Source: Planococcus liqunii
GTDB taxonomy: Bacteria > Bacillota > Bacilli > Bacillales_A > Planococcaceae
Direction of reading: 5' to 3'
Assembly (NCBI RefSeq): GCF_030413595.1
Contig: NZ_CP129238.1
Span: forward strand, 186,001-250,000
Length of the DNA: 64,000 bases
Position 1 is the stretch's first letter; every line of letters starts with the position of its first letter. Made by a program: the position numbers and the translations under genes. Shown piece by piece: positions 18,641 to 54,330 of the stretch. The notes beneath the pieces are model-generated. The model had not been told where the DNA came from, ran no database searches, and saw only the letters and a list, made by a program, of their open reading frames with translations.

Positions 18641-18668
18641 AAAAGCTGCCCTGTATTTGGGCAGCTTT
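18641..18668 (+). terminator. Left copy of a duplicated terminator hairpin
   Basis: Stem AAAGCTGCCC / GGGCAGCTTT. The T tract is only three long because the inserted element begins immediately after; the missing T residues are found on the right-hand copy at 19148-19175. Confidence 0.85.
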
Positions 18669-19147
18669 CAGACTGTAGACAAAGTTTAGATTAAATGAAT
18701 AGCGATGCATCAAATCAACCGGACCAGCCACTTCGCTTTCCGTGGGCTCAGCTTCAGCCTCCTCGTCACTAACGTTCCTGCGGGGTCTTCAGCTTTCGTC
18801 GCTCAGTCGCGTTGCTCCTTCACTGCTCCCACAGGAGTCTCCGTGGCCGGACCGGTTGAGGTGGCTCTCTTTGATTCGAAAGTGAACGATGATCCGATTG
18901 AAGCCAAACTATCTAGTTAAAAAAGAAAAGCGACACCTTTCGATAGCTTCACGTTTAGGATCCGAAGTGAAAGCCGGCGACTCCAGCGGGATAGTGAAGT
19001 GCCGAAATCCACTCGGGACGTTAGTTCCGAGTTAGTTCGGCGCGAGCCCGCGGAACGCGTCCGGCTGAAACGAAGGATCCGGGATTTTCTCTCTAAGCGG
19101 ATATTTATTCAGTTATCATGCGTAAAAATTCTTTTGTCTACAAACTC
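18669..19147. mobile_element. Terminator-embedded MITE-like repeat element, copy A
   Basis: About 480 bp without a gene, bounded by inverted ends: left CTGTAGACAAAG, right CTTTTGTCTACA. It contains a foldback core whose arms (18716-18731 and 18843-18858) match at 14 of 16 positions, and a second, diverged core of the same REP-like class further right (about 18955-19080). A second copy lies in opposite orientation at 36543-36948. Both sides carry the same terminator hairpin. Short reading frames inside it are not genes: they lie in the repeat and their reading differs between the copies. The gap 18627-19177 holds nothing else. Confidence 0.82.
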
Positions 19148-19175
19148 AAGGCTGCCCTGTATATGGGCAGCTTTT
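19148..19175. terminator. Right copy of the duplicated terminator hairpin
   Basis: Stem GCTGCCC / GGGCAGC plus five T. Differs from the left copy by one loop base (TATTTG versus TATATG) and at the truncated outer end. For the minus-strand gene ending at 19178 the A-tract side of this hairpin now acts as terminator. Confidence 0.82.
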
Positions 19176-35677: not shown

Positions 35678-35686
35678 ATTTCATGC

Positions 35687-35717
35687 TTGACCTTGACGTT
35701 GCGTTAAGGTGTAAAGT
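35687..35717 (+). promoter_or_regulatory. MerR-type promoter with 19-bp spacer
   Basis: TTGACC (35687-35692), a 19-bp spacer, TAAAGT (35712-35717). The spacer holds a dyad, arms ACCTTGACG and CGTTAAGGT around TTG (35690-35710), with one mismatch in nine. Overlong spacers with a centred dyad are the hallmark of promoters activated by MerR proteins through DNA untwisting. It lies 10 bp after the ABC exporter stop and drives the merR gene itself. Confidence 0.78.
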
Positions 35718-35739
35718 GAAGGCATCAGGAGGTGAGCTT

Positions 35740-36504
35740 ATGGAATACACCATTCAAAAGCTGGGGAACTTGGCAGGGGTCAGCACGAGGACTTTGCGGT
35801 ATTACGATGAAATCGGAATTTTAAAGCCGGCACGAAAAAATTCAGCGGGATACCGGATCTATGGCCGGCGGGAAGTGGACAAGCTGCAGCAAATCCTCTT
35901 TTACCGGGAACTCGGGCTCGATTTGGACAGCATCAAGCAGCTTGTCAACGATCCAGCTTTTGACGGGGCTGCAGCCTTAAAGAATCATCGGCAGCAGCTT
36001 CTGGAAAAACGCCGCCAGCTCGATCTCTTGATCACTAATGTGGGAAACACCATTTCCGCAGCGGAAAGGGAAATCCAAATGACTGACAAGGAAAAGTTTG
36101 AAGGGTTCAAGCAAAAGCTCGTGGATGACAACGAACAGCAATACGGCGAAGAAGTGCGTGCCAAATACGGCGACGACTTGGTCGATCGCTCAAATGCCAG
36201 AATGCTGAATATGAGCGAAGCGCAGTACGAAGAATTTATGAGCATCGAAAGCACGCTCATGGAAAAATTGGCTGAAGCCTGTGAAACGGGAGATCCGGCA
36301 AGCGGCATTGCCCAACAAACAGCCGACCTGCACAGACAATGGCTGAGCTTCACATGGCCGATGTACAGCAAAGAAGCGCATGCGGGGCTTGCCGAGATGT
36401 ATGTAGCCGATGAGCGTTTTGCCGCTTACTACAACAAAGTGCATCCAAATGCAGCCAAGTTCCTTCGGGATGCGATTTTGATCTACGCCGGCAGAAGCGA
36501 ATAA
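35740..36504 (+). CDS. MerR family regulator with TipAS-like domain
   Basis: 254 residues from the ATG at 35740 (TCAGGAGGTGAG upstream); the longer frame from 35683 would cover the promoter. N-terminal winged helix (YTIQKLGNLAGVSTRTLRYY), a long coiled coil near 80-125, and a C-terminal TipAS-like drug-binding domain with the ending HPNAAKFLRDAILIYA. This is the Mta/TipAL plan: activator of multidrug exporter genes. Its own promoter has the MerR 19-bp spacer, indicating positive autoregulation. Confidence 0.92.
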   Translation: MEYTIQKLGNLAGVSTRTLRYYDEIGILKPARKNSAGYRIYGRREVDKLQQILFYRELGLDLDSIKQLVNDPAFDGAAALKNHRQQLLEKRRQLDLLITNVGNTISAAEREIQMTDKEKFEGFKQKLVDDNEQQYGEEVRAKYGDDLVDRSNARMLNMSEAQYEEFMSIESTLMEKLAEACETGDPASGIAQQTADLHRQWLSFTWPMYSKEAHAGLAEMYVADERFAAYYNKVHPNAAKFLRDAILIYAGRSE

Positions 36505-36510
36505 AGAAAG

Positions 36511-36542
36511 AAAAAGGTTCCAGCCAAACGGCTGGAACCTTT
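36511..36542 (+). terminator. Left copy of a duplicated terminator (merR gene end)
   Basis: Stem AAAGGTTCCAGCC / GGCTGGAACCTTT with loop AAAC. A 30-bp segment (36513-36542) is repeated without change at 36949-36978 on the other side of the inserted element. Confidence 0.92.
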
Positions 36543-36948
36543 GAGCTTGTAGACAAAAGAATTTTTACGCATGATAACTGAATAAATATCCGCTTGGAGA
36601 GAAAATCCAGGATCCTTCGTTTCAGCCGGACGCGTTCCGCGGGCTTTCACTTCGGATCCTTAACATGAAGGCTATCTAGAGATGTCACTTTTCACCTTGG
36701 GATGTCTTTTAAGCTTCAATCGAATGATCATTCAGTTGCGAATCAAAGAGAGACGCCCCAACCGGTTCGGCCACGGAGACTCCTGTGGGAGCAGTGAAGG
36801 AGCAACGCGACGGAGCGACGAAAGCTGAAGACCCCGCAGGAACGTTAGTGACGAGGAGGCTGAAGCTGAGCCCACGGAAAGCGAAGTGGCCGGTTCGGTT
36901 GATTTTATGCATTGCTATACATTTCATCTAGACTTTGTCTACAGTTTG
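36543..36948. mobile_element. Terminator-embedded MITE-like repeat element, copy B
   Basis: About 406 bp, opposite in orientation to the copy at 18669-19147. Ends: left CTTGTAGACAAAAG, right CTTTGTCTACAG. The REP-like foldback core lies at 36771-36891. Compared with copy A, about 70 bp of the second core is deleted between short GGCT repeats. Flanked on both sides by an identical 30-bp terminator. Nothing else is visible in the gap 36505-37115 apart from an AT-rich promoter region after 36981. Confidence 0.85.
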
Positions 36949-36980
36949 AAAGGTTCCAGCCAAACGGCTGGAACCTTTTT
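36949..36980 (+). terminator. Right copy of the duplicated terminator, with full T tract
   Basis: Same hairpin as at 36511-36542, followed by TTTTTC. Together the pair forms a perfect 30-bp direct repeat around the element. Confidence 0.92.
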
Positions 36981-37115: not shown

Positions 37116-37967
37116 ATGCTTGAAAGAGGAAAAGAACCACTTGTTTCTGTAAAAGTCATGTCATTTAACATCGCTCACGGTTTAGGAATGAACGGAATAG
37201 TGGACTTGGAAAAAACGGCAGGCATTATTGAAGATTCCTGTGCCCATATTGTCGCTTTGCAGGAAGTCGACCGTTGCTTTTCGGAGCGCAGCGCTTTTGC
37301 GGATCAAGTGCAATGGCTAAGCGAAAGGTTGGGCATGCAGGCAGTATTTGGGGCGAACCTCGATTTTGAACCGGTGGAAGCGGACGGACCGCGCCGCCAA
37401 TACGGCAATGCGATTTTAAGCAAACACCCGATCAAGTATTCGGAAAATCATTTGTTGACCCAAGTGCTGACCGACTTTGGCAAGAATGAGCAGCGCGGCA
37501 TCTTGGAAGCGGTGATTGAAATTAAAGGGAACTTGATTACGGTGTATAACACTCACCTGGCATTAGAGGAAGAAGAGTTGAAAGTCAGCATTGGCGAACT
37601 GGTCGGCATCATCGAAAAGCGCAGCTTTCCACGAATCGTTCTGGGAGATTTCAATGCACTTCCACGGGATGGACAAATTAAGAGATTGAACCGCCATTTA
37701 AGCGACGCTTTTTTGAAATTGAAAAGAGGAGACGCTTATACGTATCCGGCACCTTATCAAAATGCGGAAACAGGTGAAAACTTCAAACCGATTACCCGCA
37801 TCGATTATATTTTCGCTGATCCCGAGCTGGATCCGGTGCAAGTAGCGGTTATGGAAACGGATGTCTCGGACCATTTGCCGATTGCAGCAGATTTTGTTGT
37901 CACGCCGCTCCAAAAACCGTTGCAGAAGCCAGCGCAGACTGCCTTCCCGAAAGTCATTGTTTCTTAA
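37116..37967 (+). CDS. Endonuclease/exonuclease/phosphatase family protein, paralog 1
   Basis: 283 residues from the ATG at 37116 (AAAGGAGAGG upstream). Motifs of the Mg-dependent EEP hydrolase fold: SFNIAHG at the start, LQEVD (metal-binding Glu), the NTHL(A)L strand, GDFNA and SDHLPI (catalytic His). No signal peptide. Such proteins cut phosphodiester bonds in nucleic acids, inositol phosphates or sphingolipids. A close paralog follows after 160 bp, from tandem duplication. Confidence 0.88.
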   Translation: MLERGKEPLVSVKVMSFNIAHGLGMNGIVDLEKTAGIIEDSCAHIVALQEVDRCFSERSAFADQVQWLSERLGMQAVFGANLDFEPVEADGPRRQYGNAILSKHPIKYSENHLLTQVLTDFGKNEQRGILEAVIEIKGNLITVYNTHLALEEEELKVSIGELVGIIEKRSFPRIVLGDFNALPRDGQIKRLNRHLSDAFLKLKRGDAYTYPAPYQNAETGENFKPITRIDYIFADPELDPVQVAVMETDVSDHLPIAADFVVTPLQKPLQKPAQTAFPKVIVS

Positions 37968-38127: not shown

Positions 38128-38967
38128 ATGGAGAGTGACAAAATCCCCCCCACGGTGCCCATTAAAGTGATGTCGTTTAATATCGCTCACGGACTCGGCA
38201 TGGACAACATTGTAGACTTGGAAAGAACAGCAAAGGTCATTGAACAGTCAGGAGCAGAAATCGTCGGTTTGCAGGAGCTTGACCGGCATTTTACGGACCG
38301 CAGTGAATTTATCGATCAGGTAGATTGGCTGAGCCATCGGCTGGGCATGTACGGTGCGTTTGGCGCCAATTTGGATCTGGAGCCGAATGAACCCGAAAGG
38401 CCACGGCGCCAATACGGCAATGCGGTTTTAAGCAAACATCCGATCAAGTATGTTGAAAACCACCTGCTGACAAAAGTTATCTCTCCCATTGCAAACAGTG
38501 AACAACGTGGAATACTGGAAGTCGTACTCGAAGTAAAAGGAACGTATGTGAGCTTTTTCAACACTCATTTGTCATTAAAAGAGGAAGAGCTGAAAGTCAG
38601 TATTGATGAAATTCTGGAGATTACGGAAAAAAGCCGCTTCCCTAAAATCATTACAGGTGATTTTAATGCAGATCCCGACCATCTGCAGATCAAAAGAATG
38701 GAAAATCATTTTGACGATGTGTTCTTAAAAACTGGCAAAAACAATATGTATACGTATCCGGCTCCTTATGAACACGACAGCGATGGCGTGAAGTTAAAAC
38801 CGGTAACACGCATCGACTATATTTTTACAGATCAACACTTGGAGCCCGAACAAGCCGCTGTTATCGAAACGTCCATATCGGACCATTTGCCGATTACAGC
38901 AGATTTGGTTCTGTCGCGAGTAGGCAGTAAAATGAAAACGGCTAATGGAGCCAGAAGCTTAAAGTGA
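38128..38967 (+). CDS. Endonuclease/exonuclease/phosphatase family protein, paralog 2
   Basis: 279 residues from the ATG at 38128 (AAAAGGAGA nine bases before; the ATG at 38119 overlaps that site). The same motifs in the same order as paralog 1: SFNIAHGLGMDN, LQELD, NTHLSL, GDFNADPD, SDHLPI. The catalytic residues are intact in both, so both are likely active. The C-terminal tails differ most, and each has its own ribosome site and upstream spacer. Confidence 0.88.
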   Translation: MESDKIPPTVPIKVMSFNIAHGLGMDNIVDLERTAKVIEQSGAEIVGLQELDRHFTDRSEFIDQVDWLSHRLGMYGAFGANLDLEPNEPERPRRQYGNAVLSKHPIKYVENHLLTKVISPIANSEQRGILEVVLEVKGTYVSFFNTHLSLKEEELKVSIDEILEITEKSRFPKIITGDFNADPDHLQIKRMENHFDDVFLKTGKNNMYTYPAPYEHDSDGVKLKPVTRIDYIFTDQHLEPEQAAVIETSISDHLPITADLVLSRVGSKMKTANGARSLK

Positions 38968-40307: not shown

Positions 40308-40323
40308 GAATTTCGTCAATCCA

Positions 40324-40360
40324 TAGTTTTTTATAGAGGGTGAAATGCTATGAACCTCTC
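40324..40360 (-). promoter_or_regulatory. PreQ1-I riboswitch
   Basis: Minus strand reads GAGAGGTTCATAGC, ATTTCACCCTCTA, TAAAAAACTA: the P1 stem (AGAGG/CCTCT), the conserved GGTTC and CACC positions, and the A-rich tail that forms the H-type pseudoknot. It is an almost exact match to the type I preQ1 aptamer. It represses queF and the transporter when preQ1 is plentiful. The rest of the 40220-40576 gap shows only the P450 upstream region, in which I see no strong promoter. Confidence 0.95.
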
Positions 40361-40576
40361 CCGTTGCCGGGTTATGTAGTTAATGTTACCTCACTCATCG
40401 TAAAAGACTTTCGGTTTGCTGTCAATTCTCTTTTTAAAGAAATCATACAAATTACCGGACAGGCCACGGGAAGTTTTTGGCGCCTTACAAAAATGAATGT
40501 ATCTGATTGTTTCGCAGATTTTCCTTGCGGGTAAGTGAATTGGAAAAGCAGCGCATTAAAGGAGGAATTGCAGTTC

Positions 40577-44366: not shown

Positions 44367-44403
44367 AAAATCCTGACGCGCTGAAGCGCATCAGGATTTT
44401 TTT
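44367..44403 (+). terminator. Terminator after the DCC gene
   Basis: AAAATCCTGA(C)GCGC / GCGC(A)TCAGGATTTT with loop TGAA and a T tail. Confidence 0.93.
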
Positions 44404-44410
44404 GTGTGTT

Positions 44411-44567
44411 GGCCGGGGCTACATGGGCGCCTGCGTTTTTCCTACTGTCCAGCTGCAGCGCCTAACTCCTCGGGTCATAAGCCACTTTGGCTATGCGGCT
44501 GGAAACACGCCGCTTCGCCAAATCGTCTTATGCCTTTCGGAGCTGAACAGGCGCTTTCAATTTCCTA
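44411..44567. repeat. Degenerate copy of the 122-bp REP-like repeat
   Basis: Contains CAGCTGCAGCGCCTAACTCC, GGGTCATAAGCC, the inverted partner GTCTTATGCC and GAACAGGCGC, in the same order and spacing as each unit of the array at 53928-54307. The first 22 bases resemble the end of a preceding unit (GGCCGGGGCT...GGGCGCC), so this may be the remnant of a small array. Its edge supplies the stop codon of the minus-strand DUF3238 gene. Confidence 0.78.
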
Positions 44568-53561: not shown

Positions 53562-53650
53562 AGGTGCAACCTTTTTGTACGGATTAGGCAGAAGGTGTCG
53601 GGAGCGGCATCGCCGGAAGTACAGTTGAGCTGAGAATAGCAGAGCAAATC

Positions 53651-53890
53651 GTTGAATAAGAAGAGTAGCGCATCGAATTCCTCTCAAAGAGAGCCGGTGG
53701 CAGGTGGAAACCGGCGAGGAAAATGCGTGAATGGGCTTATGAGAGATTCCTTGAATTACAGTAGAGGAGTCCGTTTTCCCCGCGTTACTGGGGATCGAGT
53801 GAAAGCTTTTTCAGCTTTAACAAGAGGTGGCACCGCGGTCAAACCGTCCTCTGCAAGGGAGATTCCTGTTCCTTGCAGAGGGCTTTTTTT
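53651..53890 (+). promoter_or_regulatory. T-box riboswitch, tryptophan specifier
   Basis: Stem I has AGAGTAG near its base and the apical GAGAGCCGGTGGCAGG. The specifier loop TGAATGGGCTTATGAG shows the codon TGG (53732-53734), so it reads tRNA-Trp. The T-box sequence AGGTGGCACCGCGG (53825-53838) gives a variable base C that would pair with the G discriminator of tRNA-Trp. A terminator (53848-53890: CCTCTGCAAGG / CCTTGCAGAGG plus T tract) follows. About 80 nt of extra leader with a small hairpin lies before stem I. Uncharged tRNA-Trp should turn on trpEG. Confidence 0.95.
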
Positions 53891-53927
53891 ATTGGTTGCA
53901 GGTGTGTGGTTGAAGCGGTAATGTGGC

Positions 53928-54307
53928 CGCTTCCGCTTTTCTAAGTGTCTAGCTGCAGCGCCTAGCCCCTCGGGGTCTTAAGTCAGCCCACTCTGGAAAT
54001 CAGGATTTCCGGCGTGTTCTGCCTTAAGCCTGTCGGGGCTGCACAGGCGCTTCCGCTTTTCTAAATGTCTAGCTGCAGCGGCCAGGTTCTCGAGTCATAA
54101 GCCAACCCAGCTGTGCGGCAAAGAGCGCCACTTCGCTGGTCCGTCTTATGCCTGTCGAACCTGAACGGCCGCTTCCGCTTTTCTAAATGTCTAGCTGCAG
54201 CGGCCAGGTTCTCGGGTCATAAGCCAACCCAGCTGTGCGGCAAAGAGCGCCACTTCGCTGGTCCGTCTTATGCCTGTCGAACCTGAATGGCCGCTTCCGC
54301 TTTTCTA
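53928..54307. repeat. Tandem array of three REP-like repeats (about 122 bp each)
   Basis: Units at 53928-54047 (120 bp, diverged), 54048-54169 and 54170-54291 (122 bp, only two differences) plus a partial unit to 54307. Each unit starts CGCTTCCGCTTTTCTAA and holds inverted arms GCGGCCAGGTTC...CATAAG and CTTATGCC...GAACCTGA.GGCCGC, so it folds into a long hairpin in RNA or DNA. It lies in the leader between the T-box terminator and the trpE ribosome site. It is not a CRISPR: the units are adjacent, without unique spacers. Confidence 0.92.
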
Positions 54308-54330
54308 AAAATCGAGGGAGATGAGCTGAG

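Follow-up and report, generated by a model that had tools for sequence, protein, structure and literature searches.

A gene-less repeat element between duplicated terminator hairpins in Planococcus liqunii, and the IS1182-family transposases that probably mobilise it

The window analysed here, a 64,000-nucleotide stretch of Planococcus liqunii DNA (contig NZ_CP129238.1, positions 186,001 to 250,000), contains two copies of a short gene-less element, each lying within a transcription terminator (Table 1). Copy B splits the terminator of a MerR-type regulator gene, with the terminator hairpin AAAGGTTCCAGCCAAACGGCTGGAACCTTT present on both sides of the element. A preliminary description of this DNA had reported the hairpin as a 30-bp segment repeated without change, and both its coordinates and its identity hold (30/30 positions). 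The predicted folding energies of the two hairpins are -23.4 and -24.1 kcal/mol, and in each case none of 200 shuffled sequences folded as low. On the + strand the left hairpin runs into the element with no T-tract and the right hairpin retains one; as read from the sequence, the merR transcript would continue through the element and end at the right hairpin. The outer sides of both hairpin copies retain the original A- or T-runs, such that termination could persist, which suggests a way for repeats of this kind to occupy many terminators with little harm. A scan of the whole window at Rfam gathering thresholds detected no group II intron inside the element, the only matches being a T-box leader (53643-53854, + strand) and a PreQ1 riboswitch (40317-40364, - strand) that was barely over threshold.

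Table 1. Positions, within the window, of the two element copies and of the features that adjoin them.
Feature	Position	Strand	Details	Pfam
Hairpin copy beside copy A	18642..18668	+	25/27 identical to its partner	
Copy A of the element	18669..19147	-	479 bp	
Other hairpin copy beside copy A	19148..19174	+	Resembled by the single hairpin of the G007 empty site, which has the same loop	
MerR/TipAS regulator gene	35683..36504	+	Upstream of copy B; its own terminator is the one hit	PF13411, PF07739
Left copy of the duplicated terminator hairpin beside copy B	36513..36542	+	30-bp target-site duplication	
Copy B of the element	36543..36948	+	Non-autonomous (MITE-like), 406 bp, no transposase gene	
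Left end of copy B	36543..36558	+	GAGCTTGTAGACAAAA; 10-bp core TGTAGACAAA common to IS ends	
Right end of copy B	36933..36948	-	CTTTGTCTACAGTTTG; copy A and many other copies have CTTTGTCTACAGTCTG	
Right copy of the duplicated terminator hairpin beside copy B	36949..36978	+	Precedes the T-tract used by + strand transcripts	

Alignment confirmed that copy A is the same element in the opposite orientation, inside a different terminator hairpin, as had been described. The two copies are 87% and 97% identical over two aligned pieces, copy B being 73 bp shorter (406 vs 479 bp). Because the aligned pieces overlap by 8 bp, their sequences suggest that the difference arose by deletion between short repeats; the copy B of a relative, G007, retains the stretch that is missing here. 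The perfect repeat at copy B had been taken as a sign that B is the younger copy and A the older, but this was not borne out. Copy B is found at the same site, with the same duplicated hairpin, in this genome (G000) and in G004 and G007, and copy A is absent from both of these relatives. Since B is present where A is absent, the sequences indicate by parsimony that copy B would predate the split of the three genomes, that copy A would not, and that B would be the older. The alternative, a precise loss of copy A in both G004 and G007, costs more steps and is less parsimonious. A perfectly repeated stem, which is perhaps under selection, is not a clock for the age of an insertion.

Both copies belong to a gene-less repeat family, of which 33 loci were examined in the single 3.96 Mb contig of this genome. 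Element lengths, read from the aligned ends, range from 337 to 608 bp, and the ends read GAGCTTGTAGACAAAAG...CTTTGTCTACAGTCTG. The flank before the left end of each element was aligned with the flank after its right end. At 26 of the 33 loci the two flanks share a hairpin and outscore all 660 control pairs (control maximum 27), and because of this the sharing of hairpins across the element is not due to chance; the copy B locus itself scores 60. One locus (L025), with a score of 24, is within the control range (99th percentile 23, maximum 27). Three others (L006, L018 and L019; scores 17-22) have lost the right end or the right hairpin and kept the left hairpin, and three (L023, L034 and L035; scores 13-15) are fragments without ends. 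A further copy with only a left end (L061), outside the 33 loci, also adjoins a hairpin.

The hairpin belongs to the host, because relatives without the element carry one hairpin at the same place. For copy A this is the case in G004, which has no element, and in G007, where the single hairpin is followed by a group II intron spanning the gap between two contigs; G025 and G038 also align there without the element. For copy B, a single hairpin and no element are found in G023, G030 and G012. That the hairpins might instead be the element's own terminators would explain why one is found at each end of complete copies, but hardly deserves credence, as the hairpin sequence varies from locus to locus while the element ends stay alike, and as the empty sites of A and B alike hold one hairpin. 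The preliminary description had already assigned the hairpins to the host as the target of insertion, and it is this assignment that the site-to-site variation and the empty sites support.

No transposase was found in G000 itself by a PF13751 profile search, nor did the transposase protein of the G044 genome find a match there at E 1e-20. PF13751 transposase matches are present in 18 of 46 genomes of the genus. That of G044 belongs to an element at the edge of a contig, whose terminal ...CTTTTGTCTACACTCTGA abuts a hairpin, and relatives of its protein were detected in 76 of 261 genomes of the family (E 1e-20). The search for a full-length IS with matching ends, proposed earlier as a check, thus yielded a partner: an IS1182-family IS of related bacteria, with a transposase of about 450 aa and ends CAGACTGTAGACAAA, most copies reading CAGACTGTAGACAAA...TTTGTCNACANNCTG. 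Its hosts include Lysinibacillus, Ureibacillus, Sporosarcina, Cytobacillus and Peribacillus. The right end of copy A is identical to the IS ends over 15-17 bp, and the left end of the element shares with them the 10-bp core TGTAGACAAA; outside this core the two differ, with GAGCT in the element versus CAGAC in the commonest IS end, although L185-L187 carry AGCTTGTAGACAAA. The G+C-rich inner stretches of copy A (18669-19147) are similar to the leader that precedes the transposase gene of several partner IS; one member of the clade (L146) has such stretches at both ends. Because of the resemblance to this leader, the element may descend from an IS of the about-450-aa clade by internal deletion.

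The partner IS has the same target and duplication behaviour as the element, with hairpin-shaped repeats at 54/70 and 65/80 loci in two sets, as against 26/33 for the element. In the first set, 70 loci gave 54 distinct direct repeats of 20-52 bp, together with 2 duplicates and 14 loci where none was found. The mean palindromic fraction of these repeats is 0.93, compared with 0.45 in 2700 control windows, and a fraction of at least 0.8 is reached by 53 of the 54 repeats vs 7/2700 flank windows of the same length. The second set, comprising the best 80 of 526 loci from a scan of named genomes, added 65 new repeats (5 had already been seen and 10 loci had none); 59 of the 65 have a palindromic fraction of at least 0.75 vs 45/3250 controls, and 6 fall below it. 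When pooled, the 119 distinct insertions have direct repeats of 19-52 bp that are nearly all palindromic and, in 113 cases, letter-identical on both sides. An A precedes the repeat at -1 in 103/119 and a T follows it at +1 in 96/119. Where no shared repeat was found, a hairpin was seen by eye at one detectable end or more in 23 of 24 loci, some of the 24 being the same site in related genomes. In six of them the hairpin on one side differs from that on the other, a pattern that recombination between copies would leave, and three of these six look like one site in related genomes.

Insertion follows hairpins at the element loci and at the partner IS loci alike, in agreement with the structure-guided targeting first proposed from the two copies in the window. 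Whether the duplication always equals one whole hairpin, a check proposed alongside, is answered with a qualification: the repeats are hairpin-shaped, but in some cases a longer hairpin could be drawn, the predicted stem overrunning the repeat by at least 4 positions on its 5' side in 22/54 IS insertions. Since A's precede the repeat, T's follow it and stems overrun it this often, the joint seems to sit at the junction of the inner stem with the A/T run, not at the last drawable pair.

We consider it probable that copies A and B were mobilised in trans by transposases of the about-450-aa IS1182-family clade, joining at the 5' feet of the target hairpin. As no such transposase was found in G000, it is the shared ends that point to mobilisation in trans. 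The transposase would take a DNA hairpin as its target, usually one with A's before and T's after it, as in an intrinsic terminator, and most likely extruded as a cruciform. Each element end would be joined to the 5' foot of the hairpin, one on each strand, and repair of the gaps would leave a hairpin on both sides of the element. Because both joints would lie at the same four-way junction, the length of the duplication (19-52 bp) would follow the size of the hairpin. Pathway b of the 2017 IS1272 model fits copies A and B, in that 5'-foot joining with gap repair gives the pattern seen. The overrunning stems count against a uniform joining at the stem foot, and because they are frequent the edge of the A-run may guide the joint no less than the foot does.

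A reading by sequence rather than structure would take this last point further, with the transposase joining at the edge of a short A-run on each strand, however far apart the two lie, and terminators being hit for their A/T bounds. The strong flanking preferences and the many predicted stems that reach beyond the repeat are in its favour, but the stretch between the joints is palindromic in nearly all cases and two insertions (L140 and L149) have no AAA just outside the repeat, and we regard this reading as improbable. Survivor bias, whereby insertion would be random and tolerated only in terminators, is more improbable by far: terminators lie downstream of genes, where little harm would be expected, but selection on position would not fit the length of the duplication to the hairpin, and the rarity of strongly palindromic windows of the same length in the flanks tells against it as well. 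The most serious competitor to a duplex cruciform, though still an unlikely one, retains the hairpin and makes it a single-stranded DNA substrate, as for example on the lagging strand. IS200/IS605 and other hairpin-using transposases do act on single strands; duplication by two-ended DDE strand transfer, however, needs joints on both strands.

The about-450-aa transposases were compared with two further clades. One representative of each clade was scored against NCBIfam NF033551 (IS1182), giving 477.7, 353.1 and 447.5 bits, all above the cut-off of 270 bits, and each contains PF13751 and PF05598; the contig-edge fragment of G044, at 224.7 bits, is below the cut-off. On a tree of 52 rows, comprising 26 rows of the about-450-aa clade (what a motif filter and thinning by order left of 34 unique frames), 22 of 36 from a clade here called the loop clade, 3 from a replacement clade and 1 fragment, each clade forms one supported group. 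The outcome labels on this tree follow the clade: for 3 of the 26 whole-hairpin rows (L127, L145 and L184) no repeat was found at the locus itself, and among the 22 loop rows 4 (L273, L275, L276 and L280) were dropped or have no repeat.

In the about-450-aa clade the whole hairpin is duplicated. The replacement clade, with transposases of 606-638 aa and ends GGGGCTGTCCC, has no repeat at any of 9 loci. Pairing between its flanks exceeds the control 95th percentile at 6 of these (10-14 of 20 pairs; 95th percentile 8, maximum 12), and the remaining 3 have 6, 7 and 7 pairs, within the controls. At the one site tested for its empty state (L256), the relatives examined (11, with more that match) carry 23-27 bp of palindrome in the place now taken by the IS. 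Among the matches listed, the named plasmid elements near this clade include IS1182 and ISSau3, at 44%, and none is named IS1272. The loop clade has transposases of about 490 aa, ends GAGGSCACTGAAAAA and 70 loci, of which 3 were dropped (L273, L275 and L280). With 2 bp of slop allowed at each end, 63 of the 67 left have repeats of 7-12 bp, 45 of these being 8-9 bp, and the others comprise 1 locus with a 4-bp repeat and 3 with none. Strongly paired arms (at least 9/12 pairs) were found at 30/67 loci vs 12/2010 controls; more than half of the loci are thus not in clear hairpins at this cut, and in the clear cases the duplication is at the hairpin loop. A search for loop-clade empty sites gave no match running through both flanks; at the gene end in question, the inspected stretches of G012 and G035 carry a hairpin without interruption.

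Elements with ends TGAATCAATTTCATAA (L106, L117 and L123) were set aside; visual inspection revealed no hairpin where they are inserted. In G021, an IS1182-type element that is more distant (L096), with ends TCAGGCTGTCGAGAAACC and its gene split into two frames, lies between two identical copies of a hairpin of about 30 bp. Searching solved structures by sequence brought up no credible relative, the one match being to a ribosomal protein (E 0.59).

Descriptions of DDE transposases usually give one fixed length of duplication; for IS1182, a review table reportedly lists 0-60 bp. On balance we favour the view that the clade decides where the joint falls, at the 3' feet (replacement), the 5' feet (whole duplication) or the loop (about 8-9 bp), so that structure and not a fixed stagger would set the length, and that non-autonomous elements spread through terminators in this way. 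A variable duplication length that tracks the hairpin points to an integration complex clasping a four-way junction, and the three clades, each with its own outcome, lend themselves to a search for the residues that move the strand-transfer point.

Hairpin targeting by IS1182-type elements is already known, and we rate the duplication of the whole hairpin at many sites as the probably new aspect. IS1272 and TnSha1, both of the IS1182 family, are described as targeting hairpins, often terminators, without a sequence consensus, and IS1272 as removing or replacing the hairpin with no duplication (PMC5678879, PMC4923244). The partner IS resembles them in its IS1182-family transposase and its hairpin or terminator targets; the difference lies in the fate of the hairpin, reportedly removed or replaced by IS1272 and duplicated in full here, and in the element's lack of a transposase gene. 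Replacement of the IS1272 type did not occur at copies A and B, and was seen here in the 606-638-aa clade. The 2017 IS1272 model draws three outcomes, of which replacement was proposed for IS1272 itself (PMC5678879, PMC4923244), and the three clades match these with one candidate clade for each outcome. All insertion sites but one of the clostridial family member ISCbo5 are reported as hairpins at gene ends, read as transcription stops; a duplication of these hairpins, as at the element here, does not figure in that description, and the direct repeats are listed in a supplement (PMC3098183). Members of the family vary in this respect, one from Paracoccus being tabled with a 4-bp duplication (PMC3281130), and IS1182 is listed among the families over-represented between convergent genes (PMC9208149). 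A 2025 account has IS1182-related insertion occurring with or without duplication, with or without deletion, and by sequence or structure (PMC12056078), and the split by clade offers an order for the mixed outcomes given there. Searches of the open-access literature yielded no paper on whole-hairpin duplication across many sites, nor on this element; an earlier record in subscription papers or ISfinder is possible.

In G007, two unrelated kinds of mobile element have used the same terminators. In both cases a group II intron follows directly on the terminator, at the empty site of A (L438/L437) and behind the right hairpin of B (L195/L439). Group II introns are RNA-based retroelements, and we take those of G007, which match Rfam RF02001 and RF00029 and are each split over two contigs, to be of the terminator-seeking kind, group IIC. 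They are like the element in occupying these two terminators, but the intron follows the T-tract and leaves the hairpin at the site of A single, whereas the element duplicates the hairpin. Elsewhere in the window there is a tandem repeat of about 120 nt (53895-54316), with a related unit at 44395-44516, and a 127-nt direct repeat, 75% identical (37779-37905 and 38791-38917), which is perhaps a gene duplication and has its first copy inside an endonuclease/phosphatase-type gene beside copy B.
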